From Nymphaea colorata (Eukaryota > Streptophyta > Magnoliopsida > Nymphaeales > Nymphaeaceae), in contig NC_045140.1 of assembly GCF_008831285.2 (NCBI RefSeq), positions 25,996,131 through 26,060,130 on the forward strand: a DNA stretch of 64,000 nt, in the 5' to 3' direction. The translations under genes were made by a program, and so were the position numbers. The notes beneath the pieces are model-generated. The model was not told the origin of the DNA. It saw only the letters and a list, made by a program, of their open reading frames with translations, and searched no databases. Numbering within the stretch: position 1 is the first letter of the stretch; each line of letters starts with the position of its first letter. Below, piece by piece: positions 1-55,166 of the stretch.

Positions 1-3000
1 TTTATGGAGACAGCCAAAGAAATGTGGGATGCTTAAAGAAATCTATGGCTAACAAAGCAACACCACTCGTATCTATGAATTGCAAAATGAAATTACTAGG
101 TTTATGCATCAAGATAAACCTTTTAACGTGTATGTGGGCACTCTTCGAGGAATGTTTGATGAAATGCTTATGTATCGTCCACCCACTATTGATCTCAAGA
201 TCCAACAACAACGTCTTGAAGAAGACAAAATTTTTAAACTTCTTGGTGGACTTAGTCATGATTACGAGCAGCTTCGCAGCCAAGTTCTTCTGACAACCCC
301 GCTTCCGTCATTCAATTCTGTTTGTGCTATGATCCAACGTGAAGAAACTCGCAGAAAGTTGATGATTTCCAACTCTATTATATCCGATGTCCAACCTACT
401 GAACATCCAGACAAGGTGGCATATCTTTCTAAAGGGCAACATCCATCAAGAAACAGATTGTTGTGTGAGTCTACATCTCACGATCCTGGGCCTACATCTC
501 ATGATCGACTTAAAAATCGATCTCGCTTCAAATGCACTTATTGTCAAAAACTTGGCCACACTCGAGACAAATGTTGGGACCTCGTTGGCAAGCCACCTCG
601 TAACAAAGGAGTCTCTCAAAAGTCAAACAAAGATGACACAATAGCTCACTGTCACTAAAGAAGATATGATGAATTTTTTTTCTCAAATGGCAAAAACAAA
701 TTTGGTATCATCTCAACCGATCTCTGATGCAGTCAACACTGACGATCAAGGTACATCTTTTGCTTTCTCTTTACATTCTCCTATCATAACTTGGGTAGTC
801 GACTCTGGCGCCACTGAACACATGACCAACCAGCCGACCATCTCAAAAAATTTTAAAAATTTTAAAAATTTTAAACCTGTTTTTACTGCTGATGGCTCGG
901 CAATGGGGGTTGCTGGCTCAAGTCGCATGAAATTGCTTTGTCATGGTAAGGATTCTGAAGTTCTTCATGTTCCTAATATTTCTACTAGTCTCCTATTTGT
1001 AAGCCAGATTACTCTTACACATAACTGCATTACAATTTTCTCGGCTAAGGATGTTATTTTTCAGGACAAGGAATCGACGAAGGTGATTGGTAGAGGCGTC
1101 CAACGCGATGGCTTATATTTTTTAGATTCTCAAACATTTGCATTATTTAATCATGTTTCTTCTACTGAACAATTTGGTTTGTGGCATTCTAGATTAGGTC
1201 ATGCTTCTCATAAAGTTGTTCGAACATTATTCCCTCAATTATCTGTTTCTACAAAATCTTGTGATGCGTGTGAATTTGCAAAATCTACTCGCTTACCTTT
1301 TAATAATGTTGTCGAACGTAGCTCTATATTATTTGATCTTGTTCATTCTGATGTGTGGGGTCCCGCTCCACTTGATTCTATCTCAGGTTTTCGATACTAT
1401 GTGACATTTATTGATGATAAGTCCAGGGTAACATGGATTTATTTTCTAAAACACAAACATGAGGTTTCTAAAATTTTTATCAATTGATTGTGACTCAATT
1501 TAGTATAAAGATCAAACATATTCGTTCTGACAATGGTGGTGAGTACATTAATGAAGTATTGCAGGATTTTTTATCTCAAAAAGGAATATTGTCTCAAACG
1601 ACCTGTAGAGGCACACCACAACAAAATGGTGTTGCTGAAAGGAAGAATTGTCATCTTCTGAATGTCGCCCGTGCTTTGATGTTCCATATGAACATGCCAG
1701 ATGAATATTGGGCAGATGCCATAGCTACATCATGCTACATAATTAATCGTCTTCCCAGTGAGAGACTTGAAAATATGGCCCCAATGGCAATTTTGACACA
1801 ACGATACGTCTCTGTCAATCATTTGAAAGTGTTCGGGTGCAAGTGTTTTGTTCATCTTCAACAACAATTTCGAAATAAGTTACAAAAACGTGCCATCAAG
1901 TGTGTTTTTGTTGGTTATTCTACTTCCAAGGAAGGTTTTAAGTGTTTTGATCCTACTACTAAGAAATTGTACATCTCAAGGGCCGTCAAATTCTTTGAAG
2001 ATGAGCCGTTCTTTTCTACTTCAATTCATTGTGAGGGGGAGATGCAGAGTCATAGTAATCACAACCACAATGAATCTTGCCAACAGTCTACTCCCAAGAC
2101 CTTCTTTCCTGTTTTTGACGGCTTCAATCCCAGCACCCTTCCACCGGTTTTTCACCCTGAAGTGAGTAGTCCTGAACCTCAAAATCGCGAGTCAACCTCC
2201 TTGAGCCCACAAAGCCAAACTATTGACAATAGCATACCTGAAGGAAGAAGACCTTCTAGAGTGACACGACCACCCTCTAGGTTTAGTGATTTCTATCCGT
2301 TCTGTTCCAATCGCTTACTCTAGTTCCAAACATCCCATTGAAAAACACGTAGACTTTAGTAAATTGTCAACCAAGTACCAACACTATGTCTTCAACTCGT
2401 ACTCTCTCCGCGAACCTTCAACCTTTCAGGAAGCCAGTCTTGATCCTGAATGGCAGAAAGCCATGAATGAAGAGTTGATGGCCTTAGAGAAAAATCAAAC
2501 TTGGACTGTAGTTCCTCTACCAGAAGGAAAGAAACCTGTGGGATGTCGGTGGATATACAAAATAAAATACAACAGTGATGGCAGTGTTGATAGATACAAA
2601 GCTAGATTAGTCGCAAAAGGCTACACTCAACGAGAAGGTATTGACTTCACAGAGACCTTCGCCCCTGTTGCTAAGATGAACTCTATTCGTATCCTTCTAT
2701 CAGTGGTAGCAAATAAGAACTGGAACACTTTTCAACTTGATGTCAAAAACGCTTTTTTGCATGGGAATCTAGAAGAAGAAGTTTATATGCATCCACCGCA
2801 AGGAGTCAAACATCAGCCTGGTTATGCATGCAGACTCAAAAAATCTATCTATGGGCTAAAGCAGTCTCCACGAGCATGGTTCTCAAAACTCAGTAGGGTA
2901 CTCATTGAGATCGGATTTAAGCAAAGCGCTGCAGACTATACTATGTTTGTCACTCGCTCTCAGCAAGGTATTGTTATCTTATTGGTGTATGTCGATGATA

Positions 3001-4240
3001 TTATTGTTACAGGAGACAATGTAGAACAAATGAAGAAAGTCAAAACCATATTGCACGACAAGTTTGAAATTAAGGATTTAGGGAAATTGAGATATTTTTT
3101 GGGTATTGAAGTTGCACACTCAGAAGAAGGCATTTTCTTATGTCAAAGGAAATACACGTTGGATCTTCTCAAAGAAACAGGATTCCTGGGAGCTAAGCCG
3201 AGTTCGACGCCTCTTGACCTCAACTACAAAATCAGAAAAGACGATGGAAAACCAATTCAAGATGTTCAAGGCTTTCAACGACTAATTGGAAAGTTAATTT
3301 ATCTAACCGTAACTCGGCCGGACATCACGTTTGCAGTCAACATGATAAGTCAAGTCATGCAAAGTCCTCGGTCTATACACTTGGAAACTGTTCATCGTAT
3401 TCTCAAGTATTTAAAGGCGAGTCTAGGGAAAGGAATTTTAATGAAACGAAACAACAACCTTGAAGTGATTGGATACACAGATGTAGACTGGGCTGGAGAT
3501 CAAAGTGATAGAAAGTCTACCACCGGATTCTGTACTATGGTGGGAGGTAATCTTTGCACATGGAAAAGCAAAAAACAGAATGTGGTGGCTAGATCTAGTG
3601 CAGAAGCCGAATACAGAGCTATGACTACATGTGCCAGTGAACTTATATGGGTTAAAGCGCTTCTTCTTGATATGGGAATCAAAATTGAAAAACCCATGAG
3701 TCTCATGTGTGACAACATGGCAGCCATTCATATTGGTGCAAATCCAGTGTTCCATGAACGCACTAAGCATATCGAGGTTGATTGTCATTTTATCCGTGAA
3801 AAAATTCAGAACAAAACCATATGCACTCCTCATGTTGGTACCCAATATCAATTGGCAGATATATTTACTAAAGCCCTAGGAAAGGAGCGTCATCAGTGGA
3901 TTACTAGCAAGTTGGGGCAGATCGACATCAGCTCTCCAACTTGAGGGGGAGATTGTTGAAGCAACGGCTAATTGCAGCAAGAGGAAAGTTAATAGACTTT
4001 CCTCTTGTGCGAAACTTTTTCCATTATTGTTTCCTTTCCTTGTTGTTCTCCTCTGTTCCCTCCATTATATGTCTGGAAGGGGAACCACCAAAAGTGTAAC
4101 AAGAAAGAATGAAAAAGAAAAAAAGATGACTGATTTTGTTCGTCCGTGGATGTAGGCAGCAATAGCCGAACCACGTTATCTCTGGTGTTTATGTGTGTTG
4201 TCGTCTTTCTTCAATTCTTGATAAGAAATTCATCGTGTCA
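1..4240 (+). mobile_element. Ty1/copia LTR retrotransposon, 3' part, broken
   Basis: Copia order of parts is seen from left to right: gag with a CCHC zinc knuckle near 530-590, aspartic protease with a DSGA motif near 800, GAG-pre-integrase and integrase core from about 1170 to 1900, reverse transcriptase (YVDD near 2990) from about 2450, and RNase H to about 3850. Integrase before RT marks Ty1/copia rather than Ty3/gypsy. A purine-rich tract at 3941-3953 precedes TGTTGA at 3954, the likely start of the 3' LTR, which I place to about 4240. The 5' LTR and start of gag lie outside the window, so LTR identity and target duplication cannot be read. The element is a fossil with a few breaks in its coding region. 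Much of it is still readable, so it is probably not ancient. Confidence 0.93.
3954..4240 (+). repeat. Probable 3' LTR of the copia element
   Basis: It begins with TG directly after the polypurine tract and would end with CA near 4240. The 3' edge is a guess, because the 5' LTR and the second target-site copy are not in the window. Confidence 0.5.
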
Positions 4241-6066: not shown

Positions 6067-9000
6067 ATGGAGAGGATCTGCGTTATGGTGCGTATAAGGC
6101 CGCTTGACTCCCTGGAGGAGGCGAAGGCCAGCCTGTGGCGTGTATCCGGCAACACCATCTCCCTCCATAACCAGCCTACCAAGTTCGAATTCGGTGATTT
6201 CCTCTTTCCCAATTTCCTTCTTCTTCTTTCATTTTTATCGAATTTGAGCAAGTAATCATTTCTTCTCGTTACGGGCAGATAGGATTTTCAAGGAGGAAAG
6301 CAAGAACTCCGATATCTACCAAGCTCGGGCAAAGGACATTGTGAGAGCCACAGTTCGTGGTTTCAACGGTATGCGTTTCTCGTTGTCATCTTTATTTGCT
6401 TTATTGGATTGATCGAACTCGGTGAAAAAGTGCTGTAGAAAAGAAAAAAAAAATAACAAAGTTTCATAATGCAGCCTAATATCTTTTCTGATATGAAGAG
6501 AGAAAGAACCCTTGACAGTATATCAGTTGGGTACGAAGTAGGAGATAGCGACTTCTTGCAGTTTAATGAATTATTGCTCCTTATAGGACCGGAGATTTTG
6601 TTGACGATGATACGCTGTGTTTGACAGTATATTATACTCTGGAGATGAGTTCTGATGCGTAGTCCTTTTTTGCCAATTTTGGATGAGTTTCTCGTAATGA
6701 ATTTTAAAACAGATTTTTTTTTTAATGAAAATAATAATGGTTATAGGCTTATAGCATGCAGGGTTTCAGAAAGAGGAATAGGAGCCCGTAGAGGAACGTG
6801 ACCTCTTGAGGTTATGAATGTACTTCGCATATATGGATACATTAGGCTGTTGCTTTATTTGGACAGTTTTGTTGATATCGTTTAAATCGGGTCTAGGCGA
6901 TTTCCTAGCACCGATATGGAATAACTTTTGTTAATACTCGTACAATATCCGCTCTGCTTCGGTAAGTCAGAAGACATAAGTCTTGGTGGCACAATCCGAG
7001 AGAATTTGGACTCATTCTTTCGTTGTAGGTGGGTTTTGTTTTTCTTTTTTTTTTCTGCTTTTTGTTAGATAATCTGTTGATATCCAATTTCAAATCAAAA
7101 GGTGTACTAGAGTTCTGTTGACATTGACGTTCAAGAAAAATAGATAGCACTACAAGCCTACAATCCTCTACCTTTGTTGCGTTTTTTTTCATGAAGTTTG
7201 AATCCTCGTCAATCTCATTCTTTTCTGTCTGATTGTTTAGGACTCAGAATGATTTTGCTCTTCTTCACAGGAACTGTTTTTGCCTATGGACAAACAAATA
7301 GTGGAAAAACACATACTATGCGAGGGAAACCCACTGAACCCGGAGTTATTCCACTCGCTGTCAATGACTTGTTCCACGTAATAAGCGAGGTATATAACAG
7401 CAATTGTTTGCTGATTGAAACACTCAACGGTTCTATATGTTTCAATAACAATTGGTTGCATACTCCCATTCAATAGTGCTATATGTTCAACCTTTTCATA
7501 AATTTGTATAAAAAAAATTACTCGATAAAAAATTTATGACCTGACCTGGACAAGTTGCCAAGTCAACTTGCTCATCCATGACCCATTTGTTAGCCAATTT
7601 GAGTTTAGCTTATGGGTTTTGCGTAACTGTGTCATACATAAGTTTTTTGAGTCAAAACAAAATATGGCCTGTTATATTTCTGAAATTGAAAATCTCAATA
7701 ATTTTTTATACTTTTATATTAAGAATATGTAGATACGGATTGCATGCATATAAACTGGCAAATAAATAAAAATTTTTGCATACATGTGGAGGTATGTTCC
7801 TGGAGGAAAATAATAGACCATAAACAGTTTGGATGACCAAAACATTCTAGAAAAGTTTAAGAGTTACACTTACAGGTTTCTTTGCTTAATGTAAATGAAC
7901 CTAATCATTGCTAATTACTAAAAGCTGTACCTGTTCGACATGATCAATTTGAAATTTATCTTTTGTTTTTAATCAAGGATTATTGCAATGTGAGCTGTCG
8001 ATTTTTGTTGCTCCATAAACACCTAAACAGGAAATATTTCTAACATTGTCTTTTCTAAGTTACAAAAATTCAGATGAAGCTTTTTTCTTTTTCGAAACAT
8101 TCAGGTTGAAGATAGAGAATTTCTTCTTCGCATGTCATACATGGAAATTTATAATGAGGAGATCAATGATTTGTTAGTTCCAGAGCACCGGAAACTTCAG
8201 ATTCATGAGAGTCTTGAGGTATTTATTACATAATTTTGTGAAACATGATATCTGCTGAATGTGCTGTACAATGAGATCGAATGTGTATTTATGGTGCTTT
8301 ATTGTCATCTTACAGCGTGGGATCTTTGTTGCCGGTTTGAGAGAAGAAATAGTAGTTTCACCTGAGCAAGTTCTGGAGTTCATGGAATTTGGCGAGTGTA
8401 TGAACAATCTCTTATTTCTTTTGGAACTGCGCCACATGTGCTTCATTTTTAAATAAGTGACTACATGTTTCTTTACCATGTGCAGCCCATCGTCATATTG
8501 GAGAAACTAATATGAATGTGTACAGTAGCAGGTCCCACACCATATTTCGGATGGTGAGTTCTTGCTTCATGAAATTTGCCCATTAATATGTAAGTTGCAT
8601 ACAACTGATTTATTTCCTTCCATGCAGATAATTGAAAGCCGAGAAAGACATGATACCTGTGATGCAGAGAGCCCTTGTGATGCTGTTCGTGTGTCTGTTC
8701 TTGTGTGTTCACGATTGCCCTTTTCTTTGTTTTAGTTTCTCTTTCTTAAGTGTTCCTCTTTGTCGTTTCACTCTGTCTCCGTTTTTTTTTAATTATTAGA
8801 ATTTGGTGGACTTGGCTGGTTCCGAGCGTGTTGCAAAGACAGGAGCAGAGGGTGTTCGTTTGAAGGAGGGTTCTCATATTAATAGAAGTCTTATGACACT
8901 TGGAACAGTAATTAATAAACTAAGTGAGGGGGCAGAATCAGTGGGGTAGGTTATATTAAGATAGCTTTTGAAGTTTTTTTGGTAATTATATTGGTACTGC

Positions 9001-21000: not shown

Positions 21001-23486
21001 TTTGGATTTGTTTCCTGTGCAGCACGGAAACATTGTCAGAAATTGATAGACTCAAAGAATTGCTGAAAAGAACAGAAGTTGAAAATGTTGAATACCAAGA
21101 TGTAAGTTTTCTAGCATAACCAGTTGAATAACAATCTCACTAATATGCAACAGAAGCAGTCTGATTGCAGTTTGAGTTCAGGTACTTAAGTCGAGAATTG
21201 ACTTGCTATCATCTGAGAAGAGGCATGTCGTTGAGGAAGTTGAGAAGTTGCAGAAACAGTTGAACCTCATTGCTGAAGAGAAGAACAAATTGGCAGCTAG
21301 GTGCTTACAGGATTCTGAGAGGCACAAGGTTCTCTTCATTCTTAACTCTGTTTCTTAAGCATTCTGAATATATATAATATTCTTAACATAATTAATAAAT
21401 TATGTTTTCCACCCTTCTGCAATGCACGTATCTTAGGCTATTAACGACCTCGTCCCTCTCTGTCCGCCCCTCCATCTCCTGCCCTTGCTTGTCCCTCAGA
21501 AGCTTGCAGGCTCATTGGTTGCTAGAGGGTGCTGGAGGGGAAGAGGTCAGTCTTCTTTCTTTTGAGTCCTTCTTCCACGTCTAGGGATTTCGCTAGATAA
21601 GATGCTCTTATCGCTCTCTATTTTAAAACTAACTCGTTCTTGATGTCTGTCGATTGAATCTTATTGGTCTTCTCTTGATTTTCTTCAATTGTCGTATGAA
21701 TCTTATGTGTCTGTGTCACAAATATGTCACTGATCACCTTCGCTGCCGCTTTCAAGGCCTGAAGCGGTAGCATGCCACAGAAGGTTGGCACCCTCTTTTG
21801 GGGTTGTTGAAACTTTTGCTCGTTGTTTACTGCTGCTGCAGAGTGATTTTGGAAACTCTGGATCGGGTGATTTGAGAAGCGGATATTGATTCGGGCACGT
21901 TAGACCTTCATTTGTTCTAGAGAAACGAGGGATCTTGAATTTAGAAGTTAGTACCCGATGGTCTAGGGTCGGTAATTCAGCAAGTTAATTTGAGGAAATT
22001 GCTCATATATCTTCAACATAAGTTCTTGAAACGAAAACTAAGGAGAAATGAAAATCTACAGACGGAAGCATTTTACAGGGAATAATCAATTGGATTGATT
22101 CCAACATTTGAGTTGGAAATGTACTTGCTAGGAGTTTATTGAATTATCAGGCCTTCATCTTTCTGCGAGGACACAGTCGTCTCATCATCTTCTGAATGTA
22201 CCTTTTCAATTACGGAAGTTTGGTGCGAGTAAAATTAATATCACCTGTTATGCTTTGCTGTCGTTGCTAATTCTGACTACTCTGTCCCAAATTATGTTTT
22301 GTCTTTCTTAAGGTGGGCCGTTTTTCTCTTTTATTTTTTCTCTTCATTCTTAACTCTGTTTCTTAAGCATTCTGAATATATATAATATTCTTGGATATTG
22401 CTTCCTTGTGGTAGGAGGGTTCAGATTGGATCTTGAGTTGAACCAATGACAGGTCAAGCTCAAACTTTGTGATCACCTGCTGTAGATCTGACATGTTCGA
22501 CCATGCTGATGGCTACTGATTTGGACTTTCTTCATCCATTACTTTTCATTTATTTATTACGAGAAACTAGCATAGGGCATCTTATTTTGGGATGTTATTG
22601 GTTTTTCAGAAATTTTCCTTGTTGAAATATTGCTCATCATACGTGGGGAAGTTTAGCATGGTTAAAGTGACAGTAGTAGATTTTCCATCACTGGAAACCT
22701 TGGACCCCTGGCTCCAATTATTTATTTTTAGCTAGATAGTTGTTGCCTCTCTATTGGTTCAAATTTTCCTGCACTTTTGTTAGGTGATAGACCCTACACT
22801 TGCCCTGGTCAGGAAGCTGTTGCCCTGTCACATCCATGTAGCTACAGAAGAATGTAGAGTGACGATAGCGAACAGAACCAATCTGTCGAAACATTTTAGT
22901 TTCGTGTTTCATCATTTCAATTACATTATTATTGTTGTTTATTAGTGGTATAGGGGTATAACAACAGCGATAGTAGTAATAGTAGTAATCCTCATCTCAT
23001 ACTTAAAAGACCATGAAATTTAAATTCAAGTGAAATAAGTGGATGAAATGAAACTGCTGTCATATTGACTGAAAATGACATTTTTGAGGATAACTTTAGC
23101 GGTTTGAATATTGTTGAGACTTGAGAGTTCAACTTTTAGAATGAGGCGGCATTTATTCATGCCTGTGAGACCAACCGACTACTAATGATCATCTTGATCA
23201 ACCATTTTTCTTCTTATTCGGCACTTTATGATGTTCAAGTAACCTCTATCGTTTTCTTTAACAGTTAGCTATGAATTTCAACAAAGACGTAGCAAAGCTC
23301 CGAATCAGACTGCACAACACGCAGGCAATGTTGGATGTATTTCGGTGCAAATATGAGGAGGCAGAGGATGAGAAGGCGCTTATGAAAAAGAGATATGAAG
23401 AAGCATCAAAGAAATTGAAAGATGAATTAGTCTCTTCCAGGCTCGAGCAACTTGATCTGAGAAAACAACTTAGTGAGAAAGAATGA
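6067..23486 (+). CDS. KIN7O: KIN-7 family kinesin, CENP-E-like (KIN7O type)
   Basis: This is a microtubule motor with an N-terminal motor domain and a long coiled coil, matching the Arabidopsis At3g10180 type. Exons read by eye: 6067-6193, 6279-6368, 7271-7389, 8105-8218, 8316-8397, 8486-8553, 8628-8702, 8800-8945, 9040-9142, 9955-10035, 10205-10273, 10370-10429, 10509-10670, 11344-11424, 12955-13176, 13271-13336, 13428-13574, 13684-13788, 14372-14458, 14641-14790, 16536-16640, 16891-17094, 17185-17403, 18650-18856, 18984-19073, 19173-19313, 20433-20530, 21023-21101, 21182-21328, 23265-23486. All phases join, giving about 1221 residues. The P-loop GQTNSGKT is at residues 79-86, switch I SSRSH at 191-195 and switch [10 protein letters not shown] at 227-234. 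Later exons are rich in Glu, Lys and Leu, as in coiled coils. No break is seen. The family acts in cell division; a kinetochore role is inferred from CENP-E and not shown here. One exon near 15.3 kb is uncertain. Confidence 0.9.
12165..12610. mobile_element. MITE-like element with imperfect terminal inverted repeats, in a kinesin intron
   Basis: The left end near 12172-12200 (AGATCTATTCATAGCCACAA) recurs inverted at 12571-12608 with a small insertion. The interior is AT-rich and non-coding. It lies in the 1.5-kb intron between 11424 and 12955. The family is not identified and no clear target duplication is seen. Confidence 0.45.
15297..15351 (+). CDS. KIN7O: Possible extra exon of the kinesin gene
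   Basis: The open stretch reads [18 protein letters not shown] and is followed by a donor GTATAC, and it would join well to EYKSEM in the exon at 16536. The acceptor TAG ends at 15296, leaving 55 nt, which is out of phase with an upstream exon ending at 14790. It becomes in phase if the upstream exon instead runs to 14840, where a second GTAAGT donor follows an open frame. Both models are possible, and the longer one adds 35 residues. Confidence 0.4.
15765..15880. repeat. Short GC-rich repeat-like insert in a kinesin intron
   Basis: A block of about 115 bp starts TGTAACAACCCGACC and ends GTGTTACA, far more GC-rich than the AT-rich intron around it. The ends form a 6-bp inverted repeat (TGTAAC/GTTACA). 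The TGTAAC-ACCCG start is known from ends of some plant repeats. It could be an LTR scrap or a small MITE. Confidence 0.4.
21330..21384 (+). repeat. Left copy of a 55-bp direct repeat
   Basis: Starts TTCTCTTCATTCTTAACTCT, just inside the kinesin intron. It matches 22338-22392 over 55 bp with no mismatch seen. The two copies bracket the inserted block. Confidence 0.9.
21385..22337 (+). other. Inserted copy of the 43.5-44.4 kb block in the last kinesin intron
   Basis: From about 21405 the sequence matches 43495-44431 to the end with only about six small differences in roughly 930 bp. The differences include a CTT indel near 22312 and a one-base indel near 21773. The first 20 bp (21385-21404) do not match the donor and look like filler. 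The block is on the same strand in both places. It has no terminal inverted repeats, no poly(A) tail and no LTRs, so it does not look like an ordinary transposon. It leaves the splice sites untouched, so the gene should still be spliced. Confidence 0.85.
22338..22392 (+). repeat. Right copy of the 55-bp direct repeat
   Basis: It matches 21330-21384. After it the intron continues with unrelated sequence to the last exon at 23265. Confidence 0.9.
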
Positions 23487-24345
23487 CATTCAGTGAAAAC
23501 AACTTAGTGAGAAAGAAATAGCATTCAGTGAATCCTACGGTTTCGATTTCTAACTTTTTGGTGGTGGAGCAATCACAAGCTGTAGACTTGACAAGAGCCT
23601 GCGTTGGAAAAGAAATATGGGCGTGGCATAATATACGTAACAGGATACAGGATGATGCAAAAACCATAGGCTAAGGAATATGGAAGTCAAGCATCTACTT
23701 CTGTACTAATATTTATTTTTTTCTGGAAAGCCATGTACAACTTGTAAAATCATCTCTTTTGTACATGCATGTAGAAATGTGTATCATGGAACTCTAGAAT
23801 CTGTGAATATGTCACGCTATTAGGTTTATATGCTTGCTTAGAACCCGACTTATCCATCAGAATGACCAAGAAATGTCTAGAACCTCCACGCATGCCAACA
23901 TATATAGAGCACAGAAGCTTGAGTAGCAGTACTTTTGGGAGTTTTCATTAGGAACTTGAACAATTATAAAATTTGTTTTTCTCTACTGATTCTATTTTCC
24001 TGTAAATTTAAGTGTTGTTTTCCCTTTTCGTATTGTATCTCCATCACTATATGATATAAAAGGTTGGTCATTGCAGCCACCTTTAGGAGGCAGAATTCAG
24101 CAATTAAAATTGATGAATGCAGATACCTGACGAAGAAATTCTTATGGTAAGATCACCCGAGGTGATACATCGTCTCAATAATCCGGAAATACCTTGTATC
24201 CTATTTACCAAGCTCGAAATTTACCGTCTACGTGGTCCATCATTTGGCATGGAAAATGCAATTTAAAATTTATACGTGATAAATACAGGTAATGGCCATT
24301 CAATAAAAAGGAAAATGAAGACTCCTTGAAAGCCAACTTATTCTG

Positions 24346-38029: not shown

Positions 38030-38560
38030 TTTCCTTTCCTCTTCTCTTCTGCCTTTCTCTTTTGTTGTTTTCTTGGGATGACTGTATAAAATGATATGTC
38101 TCCGACGCGTTGGAGGTCCTGATCAGTAGAAGTTATTGCATCTTGGAGATTTTAGAACATATGTTAGCTAGGGGTGGAAAACTATAGTGTTTTCCTCTTC
38201 TCTTCTGCCTTTCTCTTTTGTTGTTTTCTTGGGATGACTGTGTACAATGATATCTATGTGCTTTATAATGGGGACATGATCATCTTCGTTCTTCTTCTTC
38301 TTCTTCTTCTTCTCTTGAGCTTAATTCTCCTTCACTTTGATGATTGCTCAACTGAACTCAACGTTTTTGCTCGGCCAAAAAATTACTCCAACAACATATA
38401 GGGAAAAACTGAAAAGATCGAGTAGTTTTTGACCAGTAAATAGAATCGGATTCGCAATCAACTGATCGAGCAGCATCCAACGCGTTGGAGGTCCTGATCT
38501 ATTGGATCTTGGAGATTTTTAGAACATATGTTAGCTATTGGTCTTAAACTATAATGTTTG
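38030..38560 (+). repeat. Interleaved direct repeats behind small-protein copy 1
   Basis: CTCTTCTCTTCTGCCTTTCT through CTTGGGATGACTGT is present at 38036-38083 and again near 38195-38240. A second unit with CGCGTTGGAGGTCCTGATC through AACATATGTTAGCTA lies at about 38105-38170 and again at 38477-38540. The copies are nearly identical, so the duplications are recent. They sit in the likely 3' untranslated region. A CTT run lies at 38290-38313. Confidence 0.75.
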
Positions 38561-38599: not shown

Positions 38600-39372
38600 T
38601 AGGAGGGAAGTGGGAGAAATAATAGTCCTGTATCGAGGAAATATTTAGGAGTATTACAATTTTAAAAACGTCGAATGTCAGTCAAGCGACGAGCGGTGAT
38701 GAAGTTAGCGTGACTGTGTGGAGAGAGTTCCTCCACGTTTCTCCGATCTTAGAGACGAAGCTTTACGCTTCTGAGCTCGCCTTTTCCATTCGGCAACTTT
38801 TCCTTTTTCGCCCAATGGTCGGAGGTTTTTTTTTTTTCGTTTTTTACATGAAAAGCTATATTCGATTGTGTCATAATTCATGTTTTGGCTATGGTTAAAA
38901 GGGCAATGGTCAAAGTAGAAACGGATTGATTTTTTTCCACCTGTTCCAATTTATGTTGTGTTTGATAGTTCTGGAAGTGTATCTCGAAAACTGTCAAGTG
39001 TTTGGTGTGCATGTAAAAATTTTCTGGATGGAAATTTAAATCACTCCTCCCAACAAAAGAAACCATTAACTCGCAATAGTAAAAAAAAAAAAGAAAGAAA
39101 ACCTTAGAACATCTCTCTCTCTCTCTCTAGCTTCCAATGAATGGCTCTCTTTTTTACATCGATTAAAAATAAAATTTTAGATGCCATGAAAATTTTCGTT
39201 CTCACCCATGTAAGAATGAAATGCCAACATCATTTTAAAGAACTTCGTCCGAGTAACATGCGAGATTAGTTTTTAAGAAGTCAGAAAAACAATTTTATTG
39301 TAATACTCAAGTTCGTTTCTTCAGCTATATCAGACAATAGCAATGAAGGATGTGGCGAATAACCTTCCTCCT
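38600..39372. other. Spacer, no supported gene
   Basis: AT-rich, with short poly(T), poly(A) and CT runs. Nothing else is seen. Confidence 0.5.
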
Positions 39373-42298: not shown

Positions 42299-42735
42299 AG
42301 ATCGTAGGGGGGTTAAAAAAAAAAAAAAAAAAACTTTTTCTAAAAAAAAGTAAAATGTTTATTGACTAACAACACGGGTAGTTTTGTCCGCCTGGCGGCA
42401 CATGATGACAGCATGGCATCCTCGAGGATCGCGGGACCCACACGTACCGTTGAGTTGGCAGGTCTGCATTAATTAATTGGCCGAACGCGGACGTTGCCTC
42501 CAATAGCAGCATGCCCCCCATACTTACACAATATTACATTTAACCGATCATTTTTTCCCGAATGCCGGTTACGGTCCTACATTTTTTTTTTCTGTGTTTT
42601 CCATAATGAGGGAAGGGAGTCCTGCTTTCATTTGTAGTCGCATATGTAAGAGTATCACAACAGAAATTATAATAATACTAAAAGACAGATTTCTATCCGA
42701 TAGAACAAGGTTGCGACAATCGGGTTGGACCCACC
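42299..42735. repeat. Relic sharing flanks with the phytocyanin duplication
   Basis: From 42398 (GCACATGATGACAGCATGGC) to about 42735 it matches 47787-48215, the 3' flank of phytocyanin gene 1. Just before this, AAGATCGTAGGGGG at 42299 matches 46015 in the 5' flank of the same gene. The phytocyanin gene itself is absent here. Confidence 0.6.
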
Positions 42736-43165: not shown

Positions 43166-44440
43166 CTATTCAAACGCCTGTGGATAAACTAAGACATTAG
43201 GGCGACTCGTGCCCTGTGGAGAAAAGGAACCAGGGAGACGCGTGTGCGCCGTTGAAGAAGAAATTGGAGCACGGTTGGTACGCCATTGAAGAGAAGAATA
43301 GGGCGCTGGCAGAACTCCATTGAAGGGCAAGAGTTTCCCGCTACTTACGACTCTCGACTTCCGCTCGCTCTCGCGCCATCTGCTGCCCTCTGTGGAGTAC
43401 ACCATTCTTTCTCTCTCGCTTCTGCCATTGAATTTCCAGAGCTGCTGGAGAGGTGCAGGTCAATTTTCTCCTCTTCCTCTACTTTCTTCTTCTTTTTTCC
43501 ACCCTTCTGCAATGCACGTATCTTAGGCTATTAACGACCTCGTCCCTCTCTGTCCGCCCCTCCATCTCCTGCCCTTGCTTGTCCCTCAGAAGCTTGCAGG
43601 CTCATTGGTTGCTAGAGGGTGCTGGAGGGGAAGAGGTCGGTCTTCTTTCTTTTGAGTCCTTCTTCCACGTCTAGGGATTTCGCTAGATAAGATGCTCTTA
43701 TCGCTCTCTATTTTAAAACTAACTCGTTCTTGATGTCTGTCGATTGAATCTTATTGGTCTTCTCTTGATTTTCTTCAATTGTCGTATGAATCTTATGTGT
43801 CTGTGTCACAAATATGTCACTGATCACCTTCGCTGCCGCTTTCAAGGCCCGAAGCGGGTAGCATGCCACAGAAGGTTGGCACCCTCTTTTGGGGTTGTTG
43901 AAACTTTTGCTCGTTGTTTACTGCTGCTGCAGAGTGATTTTGGAAACTCTGGATCGGGTGATTTGAGAAGCGGATATTGATTCGGGCACGTTAGACCTTC
44001 ATTTGTTCTAGAGAAACGAGGGATCTTGAATTTAGAAGTTAGTACCCGATGGTCTAGGGTCGGTAATTCAGCAAGTTAATTTGAGGAAATTGCTCATATA
44101 TCGTCAACATAAGTTCTTGAAACGAAAACTAAGGAGAAATGAAAATCTACAGACGGAAGCATTTTACAGGGAATAATCAATTGGATTGATTCCAACATTT
44201 GAGTTGGAAATGTACTTGCTAGGAGTTTATTGAATTATCAGGCCTTCATCTTTCTGCGAGGACACAGTCGTCTCATCATCTTCTGAATGTACCTTTTCAA
44301 GTACGGAAGTTTGGTGCGAGTAAAATTAATATCACCTGTTATGCTTTGCTGTCGTTGCTAATTCTGACTACTCTGTCCCAAATTATGTTTTGTCTTTCTT
44401 CTTAAGGTGGGCTGTTTTTCTCTTTTATTTTTGCTCAGCT
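43166..44440 (+). other. Transcript-like block, donor of the kinesin-intron copy
   Basis: No long open frame or known family. It has GC-richer pieces with possible splice signals (GCAG|GTCAAT at 43458, CTCAG|AAGC near 43590, CTGCAG|AGTG near 43932), as a 5' untranslated region or non-coding RNA gene might have. Positions 43495-44431 recur at 21405-22337. This copy runs on past both edges without a flanking repeat, so it looks like the donor. Confidence 0.4.
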
Positions 44441-45348
44441 CTAGAATTGATTGCATGAAATATCGTTTTAGAAAGAGGAAGAAAAGATTTCATATGTTGT
44501 TCTACATGTTACTCAGATAAAGGATGCTCCTAATTGACATTATATAACTGTTCTATTTTTTCGTTATTTTCTTTTGTTGCCTTTGGGCGACCATCTATTG
44601 TTATGCGATGGAAGAATAGTATACTTGCTGAATATATAGAGAATAGTTAGTTCTTATATAGCATTTTATTTTTTGTAGACCATATGAACCTCCAAAAAGT
44701 GAATCAGGTTGATTGGTAACAAATTTTCTGGATACTGGACAACCATGAACAGTTCAATTCAGGGCTGCTGCAATCATGGTATGACTAAACACCTAGGAAT
44801 GTAGCACCGGTACTCTGTCGCTCAGAACACAACAGGTTCAATGGTCCTTCTAGAAATTCAGCGTACATCATTTATTTTCTTCTTATCAGCAGCAACAACA
44901 AGGATTTCAGAAGAAAAATCCATTATGTACGCTCTTAATGTTGGTTATCTTTTCAAAAACGTATGTAATTGGCCTACTAACTTATTGCATGAAATATTTT
45001 GAATGTATATTCTTTCGGACCTCGAGTCACTCAGGTCCATTATGCTTGTTATCTATGTTGCAATTTGCAGAGTTTCCTGAGACACCGTCCATGACTGCCT
45101 TTTCTGTGTCTGCAACCTAACCTGTTTTATTTGTGATTTTCAGCCTGCTCTCATTTCTTTCCTCAGAGCAACTTTCGCTTAGAATCCTCTGGATATAAAC
45201 ACTGTATCTCTTCTTTCCTTGTGCCTCTTTTTCGAGCATATTGGAGGTTTAATATGTATACATATATATATCTACACATAACACATTGCTTTCAAATTGC
45301 AGATTAGGGTGAACCCTTCCTATGCTTCTTTTACCAGCATATTGGACG

Positions 45349-45349
<1 letters not shown>

Positions 45350-45391
<42 letters not shown>
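45350..45391. repeat. TA microsatellite
   Basis: About 21 TA units. The same place in copy 2 (near 52047) has only a few units. Confidence 0.85.
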
Positions 45392-45394
<3 letters not shown>

Positions 45395-46796
45395 TTGAGC
45401 AACTGAAACTAAGTTATACCACTTGCTTGAGTTCCTTTAATGCGATTAAATAATAGTTAATACAAACAAATTATGTTGATTAATTTGTATTGGCGTCTTT
45501 TTAAAATATCAAATAATATTGTTGTTTCATATTTGATTATATTCAGATTTTTTTTTTTGGTTTATATCAAACTTAAGTAAGCGTTTCCGTTCATGCTAAA
45601 CATTTATGCAGGAAGATTTTAGGTGTAGCAAAATTTTACATTTTTTATAGTTTTAAAGGTAAAAGGTAAATGTTTGACTAATAGTTAACTCGACAGAAAT
45701 AAGCTTACTAACACTTTTATTAACCACGAAACAGTTTGATTTTATTTTTCAGCATTGTAAAAAAGTTTAGTGCGTTTTAAGTTTTTGTCGGTTCTTTAAA
45801 TGTGTTCTTAAAAACTTTTCATGAAAGGGTGGCTTATGGAAATAAAAAAAAAAAATGCCAGTACACTTTGTTGGCACAATGTGATGACTCTAATGCCAAA
45901 CTTTCTCCCCCTTTAAATAATGTAATATTCAAATGTAGTATGATTTCTTTTCATTTCATAAAATTTATTCTTATAGAGAACACTTTTCTGTTGATATGAG
46001 TTAATAGGGAGCATAAGATCGTAGGGGGCCATTTAGGAAGACTAACAACATGTTACAGTTTCATCTATCTGAGATACATGGAACAATTACATACCATTAC
46101 TGTTACCTGTAATTGGCGTCCCCACCTTTGTTCCACCACTCTTCCTCTGCACCATTGGCTTGTGCTTGTCCGTGTTCAGTAAGAATCGGAGATGCAACGC
46201 TGGTGGCTTCCTCCTTGCCATAGTGGAGTTGGCTGGGCATCATTGGTGAAATTTAATGAGCTTTTAGTGTATTATTTCATACCATCATCTCAATTTTCCA
46301 TTTCATCGATGCTCCTTTTTTCTGTCCTTCATTTTTGCAGCCGGAAACGCTCCACTCTCAAGACTTCTCCGATAAACCAACCTAATCTTCTTCTTCCCAA
46401 GGGAAATGAACGATTGCAGAAATGATTTGCAATAATTGAATTGTTAAATATTTAGATATTGAGGTTTGGTAGGATGGAGCATCGATTGCAGTTTTCTGTA
46501 AATTTAGAAAAAGATCTTCATTTATTGGGGGATTGTTGCCTGTCACCACTTGCCGGATCTTGTGTTTCTTTTCTTTGGTTATAACACAAGCTGTCACTTT
46601 GTTTTTCCTTTTTTTTTTTTGTTTTTGGGTACGCGACGATATCTGTTTCTTTATCACCGAAATGCGTGGGGGCAATATTGGAAGCTTACGTTCTCCGAAT
46701 TCCTTATGTATAGGAGATTGGAGATCCTCTCGGTTAGTCAGGTTCCCCCGCAGACGACAGAGAGAAGATCTGAAAAGAAGCTTCTAACAAGCACCC

Positions 46797-47412
46797 ATGG
46801 ATCTACGCCCCATCTGGCCGTTCTTCCTGCTCAGCGTCGCCGCTCTCATCCTTCAGAGTGCAGATTTCGCCGGCGCCACTGACCACATTGTTGGAGCCAA
46901 CCACGGGTGGAACTCCGGCGTCAACTTCACCCAGTGGGCGGCCAACCAGACCTTCTACGTTGGCGATTTCATCTGTAAGTTCTACCACCGAATGAGCCCG
47001 CCCCCCTTGCTTTCTCCCCCCCTCTTCCTAACAATTTCTTCTTCTTCCACAATCCACAGCGTTCCGGTACCCGAAGACGGGGCAGTACAACGTGTTCATG
47101 GTGAACCAGACGGGCTACGACAATTGCACGACGGAGGGGGCGCTCGGAAACTGGAGCAGCGGCAAGGACTTCGTGGAGCTCAAGGAGGCCAAGCGCTACT
47201 ACTTCATCTGCGGCAACGGCATGTGCTTCAACGGCATGAAGGTCAGCATCAAGGTCGAGAAGCTCCCGGCTGCATCGCCGCCCAAGGGGGCTGCCAACTC
47301 CAAATCCGGAGCCAGATCGGTCATTTCCCGGTGGCAGACCGGCGGCTGGGTGTGGCTAGCGGTGGCCGCATCGGCGGCGCTCGCACTTGTCTTGCCCGGC
47401 CTCCTGGTCTGA
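46797..47412 (+). CDS. Early nodulin-like phytocyanin, copy 1
   Basis: Two exons, 46797-46974 and 47060-47412, encode 176 residues. The first 27 residues are a signal peptide. The plastocyanin-like domain runs from about 29 to 126 (HIVGANHGWNSGVNFTQWAA, FYVGDFISFRYP, YYFICGNGMCFNGMKV). The copper-binding His residues are replaced by Tyr69 and Met114; Cys110 is kept and the axial site is Met119, so blue copper binding is unlikely. Cys82 and Cys115 can form the usual disulfide. A Ser/Pro/Lys linker leads to a hydrophobic C-terminus (VWLAVAASAALALVLPGLLV), typical of a GPI anchor. ENODL proteins sit on the outer plasma membrane, with roles in cell wall or signalling inferred from the family. The single intron at this place is usual for phytocyanins. 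Confidence 0.92.
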
Positions 47413-47786
47413 GTAGCTAGGGTTTTGCTTCATTGGGGTGTGAGGGCACGGGTGGAATTTCCGTCTTTTGTTTGGTTATATTTGCTCTGTAGACGTCCTT
47501 TTCCTTTTTCGCTGTGATTTATTTTTCCTTTTTGATTGATGGGTACGTGGATGAGAGGTGTAAGGCTGAAGAGAAGAACCCAACCATAGAAATTGTGCAG
47601 GGATTCTTTCTTCTTACTATGATTGTGTGAAGGCTGTAGATCTCCCCATTGCCGTGAAATGTTGGAGCTCTAACTCGACAACGCGTGAAATTGGGCGCAA
47701 TTGAAGGGGTTAGGTGGTTTACCTTCATACTATCTATCCACTGCGGGTAAAAACTGGCCGTCCCGTTCGTAATCGGCAAAAGCAAA

Positions 47787-48215
47787 CATGGCACATGAAG
47801 ACAGCATGGCATCTCGAGGATTGCGGGACCGACGGGTTTTTCGAGTTGGTGGTAGGCATCCATAAATTAATTGACCAAAGGAGATACGTACCCTTCTCTA
47901 CAATAGCAGCATGGCCCCCATGCTTGCCTAATATTGCATTTAAGACTTTTTTTTTTTTTTTTTTTTGATGTCGGTCACTCTTTTTATTTCCTGTGTTTTA
48001 TATAATCAGGGAAGGTAGTTAAGTTTGCTAGGGCCAGGGGATGGGATGGGATGGGAGGAAGAGTGGGAGCTTAACCTTTGCATTAGATGGTAGAATGAAA
48101 TACAGAAATCTTCTTTTCATTTTCAATCATTAATAATTTTATTAATCATCACGGAGAAAGACGTCTCTTTTTTAGGTGATATCCGTTAGACCAAAGGTTA
48201 CCAAAATCGGGTTGG
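47787..48215. repeat. 3' flank of phytocyanin copy 1, repeated at 42398-42735
   Basis: Shares GACAGCATGGCATC, TAATTAATTG, AATAGCAGCATG and the CGGGTTGG block with 42398-42735. Confidence 0.6.
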
Positions 48216-49519
48216 TAAAGATTTTGAGTAATTTTTGGAACCTTTAACGCCCTGTTTGATGGCAGGGTAAATTTTTCATGAAAAAAAAAATTAGAAAAAT
48301 ATATGAAAGGAAAAAATTTTGATTTATGGCCTCGAAGTTTTTTCCGTTTAAAAATCAACTACCTTTGGGGAGCACAGAAAAAGAAAATCACAGATAATAT
48401 TATTTTACCGTTGTGTTTTCAACAGTGTAACGCCACTTCATAAAAGTAAGAAACGTCAATTAGCCTTCTCCACATTGCTGACTTGGTAGACGCTTGGAAT
48501 CTATGACAGAATATACGGACGCAACATTAGATTATAACTAGTTAATGCAACAAAAGGACACAGAGAATGTCTATTTTATGAAAAAATGGTTTGCATCAAT
48601 TACCTATTTCATCTGGCATGTTCATCTGGCATGTCAAACGGGTGTATACAATATAGACTTCGCTTCTAGATGCTGCACCGAGTGCATTTGTATAATACTG
48701 CATTTGTATAATACTCTTGAATATGTTGCACTTCTTTCTCATCCAGCCATGAGGCAGTGGAATGAGTGTTGAATCCAGCTAAGTCTCATCAAAGTTAATT
48801 TCATCCATAAGAAGTACATCAACAATTACACAGCTAAGTCTCATCAAAGTTAATTTCATCCATAAGAATATGTGAGAGACACATGGAGGTGCTTTGCAAA
48901 TAAAGCAGACTAAAGAAAACAAAAAAATATGACCTTTTCATAATAAGTTATGAGTTTCAAATATGAGATATCATTCAAAAGAAACAGCATTTGAGCACTC
49001 CGTAATAAGAAAAAAACAAACAATCACATTTGCTGCGGCAATAGGGTTGATAACACTACTTTTTCCAACTGGTTCTTGAAGGTTCCATTGTTCAAGGATC
49101 TTGTTGTTTCCCAATCGTATTTTTTTGGTCAATAGAAGTGTTGGTATAGGAGGGCAAAAAACATAATAGCACATTAATGATTAAGCAACTCATTTGTTGT
49201 CTAAGTAATTTCCACTACTCTTTCAACTGTAAAAGAAAAGAGATAGATATTTTACCTACAACTTTCCATAAGTACTTGAGAACACGAACAAAAACAACGT
49301 CGACCGAAACAAATGGCATCAACATTGACAACAAGCAATCGATAGTTAGTTGGGGCTTTACCGTGTCCTAGTGTTTTACCTTTGATGTAACGGCAATCGA
49401 CGATCGTCTAACCGTCCTGCAAGAACATTTCATGCGATGACAAAGGTAAAGAACCCACAAACAAAGGTCGGTTACAGATGTTTAGGGTTTTACCTTGCGA
49501 CGAGAGATATGGGATCTTT
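48216..49519. other. Spacer with short direct duplications
   Basis: CAGCTAAGTCTCATCAAAGT, with the following bases, is present at 48776 and 48831 (38 bp, near identical). Two smaller repeats lie at 48619-48638 and 48686-48715. No gene is seen. Confidence 0.55.
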
Positions 49520-50962: not shown

Positions 50963-51817
50963 GGCAATTCGTTTATAAGGAAAAGCACTTGTGACCTCTG
51001 GCTGGCTGTCTGAGTGACCAGAGCTAGAAAAGATTTGTGAAGGAAGCATTTTCACATATTTTCATGTCTGGAGGGACACTCATATATACATAATATAGCA
51101 AATTTTTATAAATATTCATATGAAAATAAAAAAAACTTTGAAGAGCGCACACCACACCAACCCATATGAACTTGAAAAATAAGATATCATATAGCAGACA
51201 AAATAAATATAATAGCTAAAATTCATTAGAGAAAATACAAATACTGGATAGAATAGACAGTTTGAGCGAAAACATAAACAAACACTAAACTAGACATATA
51301 GAACTAACCATGACCATGGAAGACACAAACATCGGACAGAAAGGATAGATTAGAGAGAATGGATAGATCGGACAAGACAGAAACAAACGTCAGACAAGAC
51401 GGACATAACAGACAGAACAGACACACACGAAACAAACGCTGGACAAGAAGCACATAGTGTTATGTTCCTAAAATCATCAAACGGTGGACAAGGAACATCA
51501 TTGTCCATAAAGACATGACAGTAGTGTAATGGACAGGACGTTAGGTAGCCTTTATGGATGTACATGCCCACACAGCAAGAAATGAAGGATGATCGGAGGG
51601 GAAGTTACAAAGGTAAAACACAAGCACGGCCTTTTATGATTCTAGATCTCAGGCTACTAAACTCAACCTAAAGGGCTCACCACCTGAAAATCGGTTCGTA
51701 CTGCCTTGTCTTTTTACTCTTAAATTTGAATGTGTGCTTGAGGTTAGAATATTTCAAACAAGTACAAAGTATTTTAAATGTAATATGGGCTGCTTCGTTC
51801 CAGTAGAGCGACATTAC

Positions 51818-53965
51818 TGCACTCATTTTTTTTCCTCAGTGCAACTTTCACTTAGAATCCGCTGGATATAAACACAGAGCATCTCTTCTTTCTTTGTGCC
51901 TCTTTTCCCAGCATATTGGAGATTTATATGTGTACACATATATCTACACAATGCTTTCAACATGCACTTTGTGGGCTAGTTTAGGGTGAACCCTTGCTGG
52001 AGTTTCTTTTTCCAGCATATTGGGCATTTGATACAAACAAACAAATATATATATATATATCTATGATCAAATAAAACTAAGTTATACCACTTGCTTAAAT
52101 TCCTTTAATTTGATAAAATAATAGTTAATACAAGTAAATTATGTTGATTAATGTGCATTGGCGTCTTTAAAAAATATCAAGTAATATTATTGTTTCATGT
52201 TTGATTATATGTAGACTGTTTTTTTCCTTTTTGTTTATATCATACACTTGTATTCTTTTCCATTCATGCTAAACATTTATGCAGGAAGATTTTAGGCATG
52301 TTTGCAAAAGTATACATATTTTTTTTTATATTTTTAAAGGTAAATGGTCACTAATTTAATAGTTAACTTGTCAGAAATAAGCTTACAAACACATTTATTA
52401 GCCATGGAATAGTTTAATTTTGTTTTCAGCAACGCAAAAAATTTTAGCGCGTTTGATGTTTTTGTCGGTTCTTTACATGTGTTCTTAAAAAAATTTCTAG
52501 AAAAGGAGGAGCCTGACTACTTTATAATGAAAATGGTTCAAATGGTGGAGCTGGCTGGACTCCGGACCGGCGTCATTGATGAAATTTAATAAGCTTTTAG
52601 CGTATTATTGCATGCCAACGTATTTATTTCTTCGGCTATTTGAAATCCGTTCTCGTCCGTCCCCATTTTCCGTTTTATCAGTGTTCATTCTTTCTTTCCT
52701 TCATTTTCGCATCCGTAGAAGCTTCCGTCTCAAGACTCCTCCGATCAACCAACGTAGTCTTCTTCATGTAAATGATTTACAGTAATTGAATTGTTAATTG
52801 TTTAGATGCCGAGGTTTGGTAGGGAAAGGGACGATCATCGATTGAAGTTTGGTAGGGAGACGGCTGTCACCATTTGCTTGCAGCATCTTGTGTTTCTTTT
52901 TTCTTTGGTTATAAAACTACAGGCTGTCATTTGTTCTTTCCCCTTTTTTTTGTTACCGATATCGCTTTCTTCACTATCGGAAATAGACGAGGGTGAGATT
53001 GTATAATCAGGTTCTCTGAATTCCTTACTCGCAGAGGAGGTTGGAGATCCTCTTGGTCACTCTCAGGTTCTCCCGCAGACGACAGAGAGAGAAGAAGCAC
53101 CCATGGATCTACGCCCCATCTGGCCGTTCCTCTTGCTCAGCGTCGCCGCTCTCATTCTTCAGAATGCCGATTTCGCCGTCGCCACCGACCACATTGTGGG
53201 AGCCAACCACGGGTGGAACTCCGGCGTCAACTTCACCCAGTGGGCGGCCAACCAGACCTTCTACGTTGGCGATTTCATCTGTAAGTTCTACCACCGAATG
53301 AGCCCGCCCGCCCGCCCCCCTTGCTTTCTCTCAGTTCCCACTCTCCCCCCAACCCCTTCTATCCCTAACCATTTCTTCTTCTTCCACAATCCACAGCGTT
53401 CCGGTACCCGAAGACGGGACAGTACAACGTGTTCATGGTGAACCAGTCGGGCTACGACAATTGCACGACGGAGGGGGCGCTCGGAAACTGGAGCAGCGGC
53501 AAGGACTTCGTGGAGCTCAAGGAGGCCAAGCGCTACTACTTCATCTGCGGCAACGGCATGTGCTTCAACGGCATGAAGGTCAGCGTCAAGGTCGAGAAGC
53601 TCCCGGCTGCATCGCCGCCCAAAGGGGCTGCCAACTCCAAATCCGGAGCCAGATCGGTCATTTCCCGGTGGCAGACGGGCGGCTGGGTGTGGCTAGCCGT
53701 GGCCGCATCGGCGGCGCTCGCACTTGCCATGCCCGGTCTCCTGGTCTGAGTAGCTAGGGTTTTGCTTTCTTTGGAGTCGATCCACACAGGAGACGGAGGT
53801 GTGAGGGCACGGGTGGAATTTCTGTCTTGCTTGGTGTGTCTGTTATTTTTGCTCTTTTGGTGTCCTTTTTTTTGTGGTCTTTTTTTTCCCCCCCTTGTTT
53901 GTTTATCGGAATGTTGATGAGCTGTGAGGCCGAAGAACCCAACCTTAGAAATTGTGCAGGATTCT
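51818..53965 (+). repeat. Duplicated block, copy 2 (phytocyanin gene with flanks)
   Basis: Matches 45148-47600. See copy 1. Confidence 0.85.
53103..53749 (+). CDS. Early nodulin-like phytocyanin, copy 2
   Basis: Two exons, 53103-53280 and 53397-53749, encode 176 residues, like copy 1. Seventeen base differences from copy 1 are seen in 531 coding bases, seven of them changing residues: F10L, S21N, G26V, T77S, I123V, V170A and L171M. The intron is 116 bp against 85 bp in copy 1. The same two His ligands are lost (Tyr69, Met114), so the loss predates the duplication. Signal peptide and GPI-type tail are intact, and both copies look functional. Confidence 0.92.
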
Positions 53966-54375
53966 TTATTCTTACAATCATTTTATGTAGACTGTAAGGA
54001 CTTAATTGCCCTCATGAATTGGTGTCACTGGATCATGAGTAAGTCCATGATAAATTGGTGTTGTTAAATGTTCAAGTAGGATCTTTGATCTCGATTTAAT
54101 GAACAAGGCTGGTAATTTGGATCAAAATTCCGGCCATGAATTCGAGGACAACTTTTGATGTATGTGCTCATCAATAATAACAAAGTATAAGTTGATTGAT
54201 AAGTAGAAACAAAGAGTCGTTTGATTACCCAGGTTTTAGACTCAAGGGTCTGATGTACGGTGGAGCCAATCTCAAAGATAGAGAACTGTAAATTTAATGT
54301 CTTCAATATTATGCCTCAAATCAAAGGGAAGGGGGTCTAACTTGAAACTGATACAAGAAATTGAGCTTCAAGTTG

Positions 54376-54561
54376 AACTTGAAATCCCGGAATATAAAAG
54401 GTTTTTTCCTTCCAGTCAGAAATTTGAAATGTTGGACACTATGAATGCAAACCACCAAAGTACATGCGGTGGGTTTGATAAAAGAGCAGCCTTATTTAGT
54501 GCATGATAATTCATTTCCATACTTATCAAGGATGGAAAAAACCTTTCAATCACTATAAGCA
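54376..54561 (+). repeat. Direct repeat, left copy
   Basis: Pairs with 54998-55166. About 440 bp of unrelated sequence lies between. It could be the ends of a small decayed element or a local duplication. Confidence 0.6.
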
Positions 54562-54997: not shown

Positions 54998-55166
54998 GAA
55001 ATCCCGAAATAAGAGCACAACTGGAAATTTGAAGTGTTGGACACTGTGAATGCAAACCATCAAAGTACAGGCAGTGGGTTTGATAAAAGAGCAGCCTGTA
55101 AAGTGGATGATAATTCATTTCCATGCGTATCAAGGATGAAAAAAAACCTTTCAATCACCATAAGCT
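54998..55166 (+). repeat. Direct repeat, right copy
   Basis: Pairs with 54376-54561. Confidence 0.6.

Follow-up and report, generated by a model that had tools for sequence, protein, structure and literature searches.

Gap patching and gene movement in grasses, through ectopic copying into breaks, have reportedly been described by Wicker et al. 2010, the segments there being larger and gene-bearing. In the human lineage, Pace et al. 2009 considered 68 breakpoints, 51 of them without poly(A/T), and three of these 51 combine microhomology, a target duplication and filler; the ranges tabulated in that study are 2-9 nt for microhomology, 4-21 nt for target duplication and 1-68 nt for filler (PMC2671141). 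The closely linked duplications reported there reach 619 bp, and only those with donors at less than 5 kb were classed confidently as made by repair (PMC2671141). In rice, insertions of 10-1000 bp include tandem or partly tandem duplications as well as sequence from ectopic donors, and have been ascribed to the repair of offset nicks (Vaughn and Bennetzen 2014, as related in PMC7407515). Rice insertions are also reported to be mostly tandem duplications ascribed to nick repair, with a share that drops beyond 125 bp (PMC7971508). Tandem duplications have been ascribed to adjacent nicks both in rice (PMC7971508, PMC7407515) and, according to citing papers, in Arabidopsis. For polymerase-theta joining in Arabidopsis, fillers are reported to map to the flanks of the break or to the far end of the captured T-DNA (PMC10923293).

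The locus described here lies in a stretch of plant DNA of 64 kb, the whole of which was analysed and is referred to as the window. An intron of a kinesin-like gene in this window has most likely been doubled in length by break repair with a copy from 22 kb away. At 22.09 kb, the presumed donor is outside the confident proximal class of Pace et al. (<5 kb).

The host intron

The gene was recognized by a match to Pfam Kinesin PF00225 on the exon 7195-7476 (E 2.1e-15), in a Pfam scan of seven proteins, two of which had matches (this exon and a copia-type reverse transcriptase). We infer that this exon and the exons round the intron form one kinesin-like gene. The intron is 1936 bp long, or 928 bp once the 1008 bp added by the insertion are left out, and its acceptor CAG (23262-23264) allows a phase-0 open join to the following exon, which has its stop at 23486 (Table 1). 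The usual 5' splice consensus is GTAAGT, and the 5' splice site found here, AAG/GTTCTC, fits it weakly; because of this weak site, the intron is given as a predicted one. The ancestral state was presumably the intron without the insertion.

Table 1. Positions, in the window, of the host intron, the parts of the insertion and the presumed donor
Feature	Position	Strand	Basis or remark
Kinesin-like exon before the intron	21182-21328	+	Open frame; ends ...ERHK, phase 0
Intron, probably the gene's last	21329-23264	+	Splice sites and phase-0 open join; predicted from sequence
Left copy of the 55-bp direct repeat	21330-21384	+	Starts at intron position +2; exact match, self-BLAST
Filler, 20 nt	21385-21404	+	Hairpin that includes the block's opening two T; partial recurrence at 22289-22300 and 44380-44391
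Copied block, 933 bp	21405-22337	+	Alignment to 43495-44431
Right copy of the 55-bp direct repeat	22338-22392	+	Runs on into the intron; exact match, self-BLAST
Next, probably last, kinesin-like exon	23265-23486	+	Open frame LAMNFNKDV...QLSEKE-stop
TTCTT before the presumed donor block	43490-43494	+	Same 5 nt as at the end of the left repeat copy; may be microhomology used for priming
Presumed donor copy of the block	43495-44431	+	22.09 kb from the intron copy; no flanking repeat

That the repeat starts at intron position +2 had gone unnoticed in the preliminary description of this DNA. By a simple post hoc count, a repeat would start at one of the first 3 of the 928 intron positions with a chance of about 0.3%, and the position may reflect chance, a break linked to transcription or the trace of an RNA template. 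At the other end of the intron's downstream exon, a 34-bp tandem duplication (23461-23532) spans the stop codon of the kinesin-like gene. The copia-type match belongs to apparent retrotransposon remains at 53-3944, which occupy several frames and contain an RVT_2 match in 2265-3941, the sole part of them that was scanned. This reverse transcriptase and the structure of the gene both point to a plant.

Anatomy and age of the insertion

The insertion is bracketed by a 55-bp direct repeat that is perfect and maximal, by exact comparison and by BLAST across the 64-kb window, and whose sequence pairs only with itself in the whole-window self-BLAST (E up to 1e-3). Between its two copies lie a 20-nt filler, present on the left side of the block only, and a block of 933 bp. 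A second copy of this block persists at its own site in the same orientation, with 928 of the 933 aligned bases identical and with differences amounting to 5 substitutions, a 1-bp indel and a 3-bp indel. Both the duplicated stretch and the near-identical second copy are thus directly seen, and neither the repeat nor the block has a third copy in the window (self-BLAST, E up to 1e-3). The preliminary description had reported perfect 55-bp repeats around the insert, a filler of 20 bp on one side and a near-identical copy of the block, all of which stand at the positions given; its estimate of "about six" differences does not, since seven are counted (5 substitutions and 2 indels). As a control for the repeat search, bases were permuted inside 200-bp blocks, a procedure in which dinucleotides are not kept, and 10 such shuffled windows yielded 0 direct repeats, whereas the unshuffled window gave 10 rows (7 loci) under equal criteria.

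The two copies of the block differ by 0.54% in substitutions and the two copies of the repeat by 0 of 55 positions. At a divergence of 0.54%, the probability of observing no change in 55 bp is 0.74. As the repeat value agrees with that of the block, both could derive from one event and have one age. From plant mutation rates we put this age between hundreds of thousands and a few million years. Both indels between the block and the presumed donor sit in short repeats; they may be sequencing errors, in which case the scar would be younger.

Of the two block copies, only the one in the intron is bracketed by the duplicated stretch. The absence of the 55-bp repeat from the other site had been claimed beforehand and is borne out: the two 70-bp flanks at 43.5 kb have no word of at least 6 nt in common, and within the presumed donor plus 300 bp on each side no exact match to the repeat exceeds 11 nt. 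The 43.5-kb copy is best read as the donor and probably not as a sister copy. Its locus gives an impression of splice-like signals. In the neighborhood of the presumed donor, 45145-47638 and 51817-53996 form a duplicated stretch that is 78-79% identical at the DNA level in two long pieces, the donor itself being outside the duplicated unit, and 42397-42620 and 47790-48019 form another repeat pair with 71% identity.

Junctions and filler

With the filler left out of account, the TTCTT that closes the left repeat copy leads into the block just as in the donor, where TTCTT-TTTTCCACCC is read; 5 nt are common to both, and the BLAST alignment of the block extends 5 nt beyond the junction. Among 19,000 positions of the kinesin region, 85 match the donor at least as well as the left join does, and the ends of both repeat copies are among these 85. 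The 5-nt microhomology is indirect, because the 20-nt filler separates the presumed priming TTCTT from the T-run of the donor. At the right join the overlap is 1 nt. These overlaps, as well as the filler and its matches described below, are read directly from the DNA.

Extended by the two T that open the block, the filler reads AACATAATT-AATA-AATTATGTT, a snap-back with a 9-bp stem and a 4-nt loop. A stem of at least 9 bp was obtained in 99 of 20,000 shuffled fillers (~0.5%), and when 2,049 AT-rich 24-mers from the kinesin region were examined, a 9-bp stem occurred in 3, all of them containing the filler itself. In addition, the last 8 nt of the filler followed by TTTT of the block (AAATTATGTTTT, 12 nt) recur within the block and at the corresponding place in the donor (Table 1), and among 5,000 shuffled fillers, 20 (0.4%) gave a 12-nt match to the donor region. 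Stretches of the filler longer than 12 nt do not recur in the window. The stem and the 12-nt match were both tested post hoc and have letters in common, and for these reasons the two tests are suggestive and do not count as independent proof.

Features of mobile elements

The block lacks the transposon hallmarks that were looked for, as the preliminary description had also stated with respect to terminal inverted repeats, LTRs and poly(A). The best inverted-repeat score between the 60-nt ends is 5, a value reached by 339 of 500 shuffles; the direct-orientation score between the same ends, as a gauge of long terminal repeats and taken as it stands with no shuffle control, is a low 7, and self-BLAST gives no internal repeat. 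A LINE or SINE would carry a 3' poly(A) or simple-repeat tail, and a SINE also a pol III box B; the block has no run of A or T of 8 or more and no box B, and on these grounds a SINE was rejected. A Helitron has a CTRR 3' end and inserts between A and T without a duplication. Here CTRR is found at neither end of the block and a 55-bp duplication is present instead, so this candidate was discarded too. A large segmental duplication was dismissed given that the homology ends at the edges of the block in self-BLAST, and so was a tandem duplication followed later by an insertion, which would have had to hit the repeat junction exactly.

The longest open stretch of the block, 93 codons and the only ORF scanned there, has no Pfam match. 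One short exact pattern from the block had 0 matches in viral contigs and 0 in bacterial/archaeal genomes (two scans), one from the 55-bp repeat had 0 matches in viral contigs, and plasmids likewise gave 0 matches to the block in a distant BLAST, all of these being non-plant collections. In the window, a tRNA scan returned 0 hits and an Rfam search at gathering thresholds no match within the block. The single Rfam match, snoRNA snoR114 at 38691-38778, lies elsewhere and scores 45.9 bits, where the gathering threshold is 45.

Proposed origin and alternative explanations

Error-prone double-strand break repair by ectopic copying, with tails of about 55 nt left by offset nicks, is in our judgement the probable explanation of the insertion. 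The target stretch is found on both sides of the insert as a perfect 55-bp repeat, as the patching of offset nicks expects, and the joins carry what repair with templated insertions expects, namely 5 nt of microhomology on the left (filler set aside), 1 nt on the right and the 20-nt filler. A second locus of similar anatomy in the window (38035-38253) also speaks for this origin. Points against it are the size of the 55-nt offset in comparison with published cases, the 22-kb distance of the donor, the indirect nature of the left microhomology and the alternative reading of the second locus (see below). The break, its geometry, the order of the steps and the enzymes can be reconstructed as follows. 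A double-strand break would have occurred in the kinesin-like intron, probably with complementary single-strand tails of about 55 nt produced by two offset nicks, and both tails would have been retained and made double-stranded, leaving 55 bp on each side. Before joining, the left 3' end (...TATTCTT) may have primed on short homologies and copied foreign templates. The first of these would be a small piece close to the donor's far end, which may have been copied in both orientations and would have given the 20-nt hairpin filler; the second would be the donor itself, copied from its T-run (43495) as far as 44431 (~935 bp). The new strand would then have been joined to the right-hand end with an overlap of about 1 nt. 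The likeliest machinery is polymerase theta-type end joining together with synthesis-dependent copying.

The same structure could have formed during replication, if a fork or a broken arm left at 21384, copied the filler and the donor and re-entered 55 bp back, with no staggered break involved. Such template switching, which we take to be FoSTeS/MMBIR-like, expects the same orientation of the copies, a filler drawn from several short templates in series and joins with microhomology, and no sequence feature contradicts it. Its product is identical whatever the length of the repeat. The preliminary description had proposed a staggered break repaired on an ectopic template; the copying is supported by the 5-nt microhomology, the snap-back filler and the lack of the transposon hallmarks looked for, whereas the staggered break is not singled out, given that a template switch yields the identical product. 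For the tandem duplications of rice, the repair of adjacent nicks is reported to be favored over replication slippage, which is a different replication model (PMC7971508). All in all, we regard template switching here as possible, if rather unlikely. A variant in which the patch passed through RNA, with a repair template made up of the excised intron's RNA and a linked piece of donor transcript, was considered because the right repeat copy begins one base after the intron 5' end, and it appears extremely improbable.

Since the 64 kb contain the block twice, once with a duplicated target, an uncharacterized non-autonomous mobile element of ~930 bp with unusually long target duplications of 55 bp could also be considered. 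No plant element is known to us that makes a target duplication of 55 bp. The other copy has no duplication, a filler is present at one end, and the window has only these two copies; in the block, none of the terminal inverted repeat, poly(A), box B and Helitron end was found and the one ORF scanned has no Pfam match. Such an element is very unlikely. The target duplication would also fit target-primed, LINE-type reverse transcription of unspliced donor RNA (a class 1 templated insertion), and human templated insertions with a target duplication are known (PMC5110952). However, no poly(A) was added here: the AAAA that stands before the filler, at the 3' end of the minus strand, is part of a run of six already present in the donor. 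Neither edge of the duplication (ACAAGG/TTCTCT and ATTCTT/GGATAT) equals TTTT/A on either strand, and this origin is left with a minimal probability. An assembly artefact or a mis-join of haplotypes, finally, would be hard put to yield a 55-bp duplication along with a new filler, none of whose stretches above 12 nt recurs in the window, and seven differences separate the copy from the donor; we hold such an error to be highly improbable. Even when taken jointly, the mobile element, the LINE-type insertion and the artefact amount to a distinctly unlikely set of explanations.

Other repeats in the window and implications

Among the 7 repeat loci, a 63-bp direct repeat at 38035-38097 and 38191-38253 (97% identity) brackets 93 bp that resemble 38476-38559, about 290 bp downstream. 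This locus may be an older, short-range scar of similar anatomy; alternatively, it may have arisen by tandem duplication with a later deletion. A perfect 38-bp direct repeat (48776-48813 and 48831-48868) is separated by a 17-nt filler, for which no match above 8 nt was found within 2 kb. The four remaining loci (23461, 33426, 41687 and 54419) appear to be unremarkable duplications that are short or diverged, the last being a direct repeat of ~143 bp (54419-54560 and 55024-55165; 89.5% identical) with its copies 463 bp apart. The occurrence of the 38035-38253 locus and of the 38-bp repeat with its filler in the same 64 kb suggests that such scars may be frequent enough for genome-wide counting.

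Repair of the proposed kind would make possible the growth of plant introns and intergenic DNA without transposons. As the scar is young (0.54% divergence), its target, template, filler and junctions are all legible, and a single event shows how one repair may double the length of an intron and which templates may be touched en route.

Comparison with known systems

The repair-mediated duplications of Pace et al. are alike in having a copied chromosomal insert, a donor that stays in place and no poly(A) (PMC2671141). They differ in size (at most 619 bp versus 933 bp), in distance to the donor (<5 kb versus 22 kb), in target duplication (4-21 nt versus 55 bp) and in the lineage concerned, human versus plant (PMC2671141). 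The proposed offset of 55 nt is also far above the values reported in both the human lineage, 4-21 nt (PMC2671141), and Daphnia introns, 4-12 bp (PMC4202315). In Daphnia, direct repeats from staggered breaks have been proposed to lengthen young introns, which resembles the present case, but those repeats are common to the adjoining exon and occur at newly gained introns (PMC4202315).

Breaks made by paired nicks (Schiml et al. 2016, as cited; PMC5730883, PMC8355091) are similar in that the DNA between the nicks becomes duplicated when the complementary tails are filled in. Mouse cells join them mainly by classical end joining, and the available parts of these sources describe no ectopic patch of 0.9 kb (PMC5730883, PMC8355091). 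The patch-mediated tandem duplications of rice share the proposed origin in nicks, whereas the portions of the rice papers at hand mention no long insert of ectopic origin lying between the repeats (PMC7407515, PMC7971508). In wheat, a rearrangement in VRT-A2 intron-1 has been ascribed to alternative end joining with templated insertion, as we propose here in part, but its sequence is of local origin with no donor 22 kb off, and no 55-bp bracket is described in the available text (PMC8364232).

In the literature searched, where central studies on rice and Arabidopsis were represented through citing papers, no plant case was found in which repeat and insert are both this long. The kind of scar, which combines microhomology, target duplication and filler, is already in print for the human lineage (PMC2671141), and the present case is an unusually large one.
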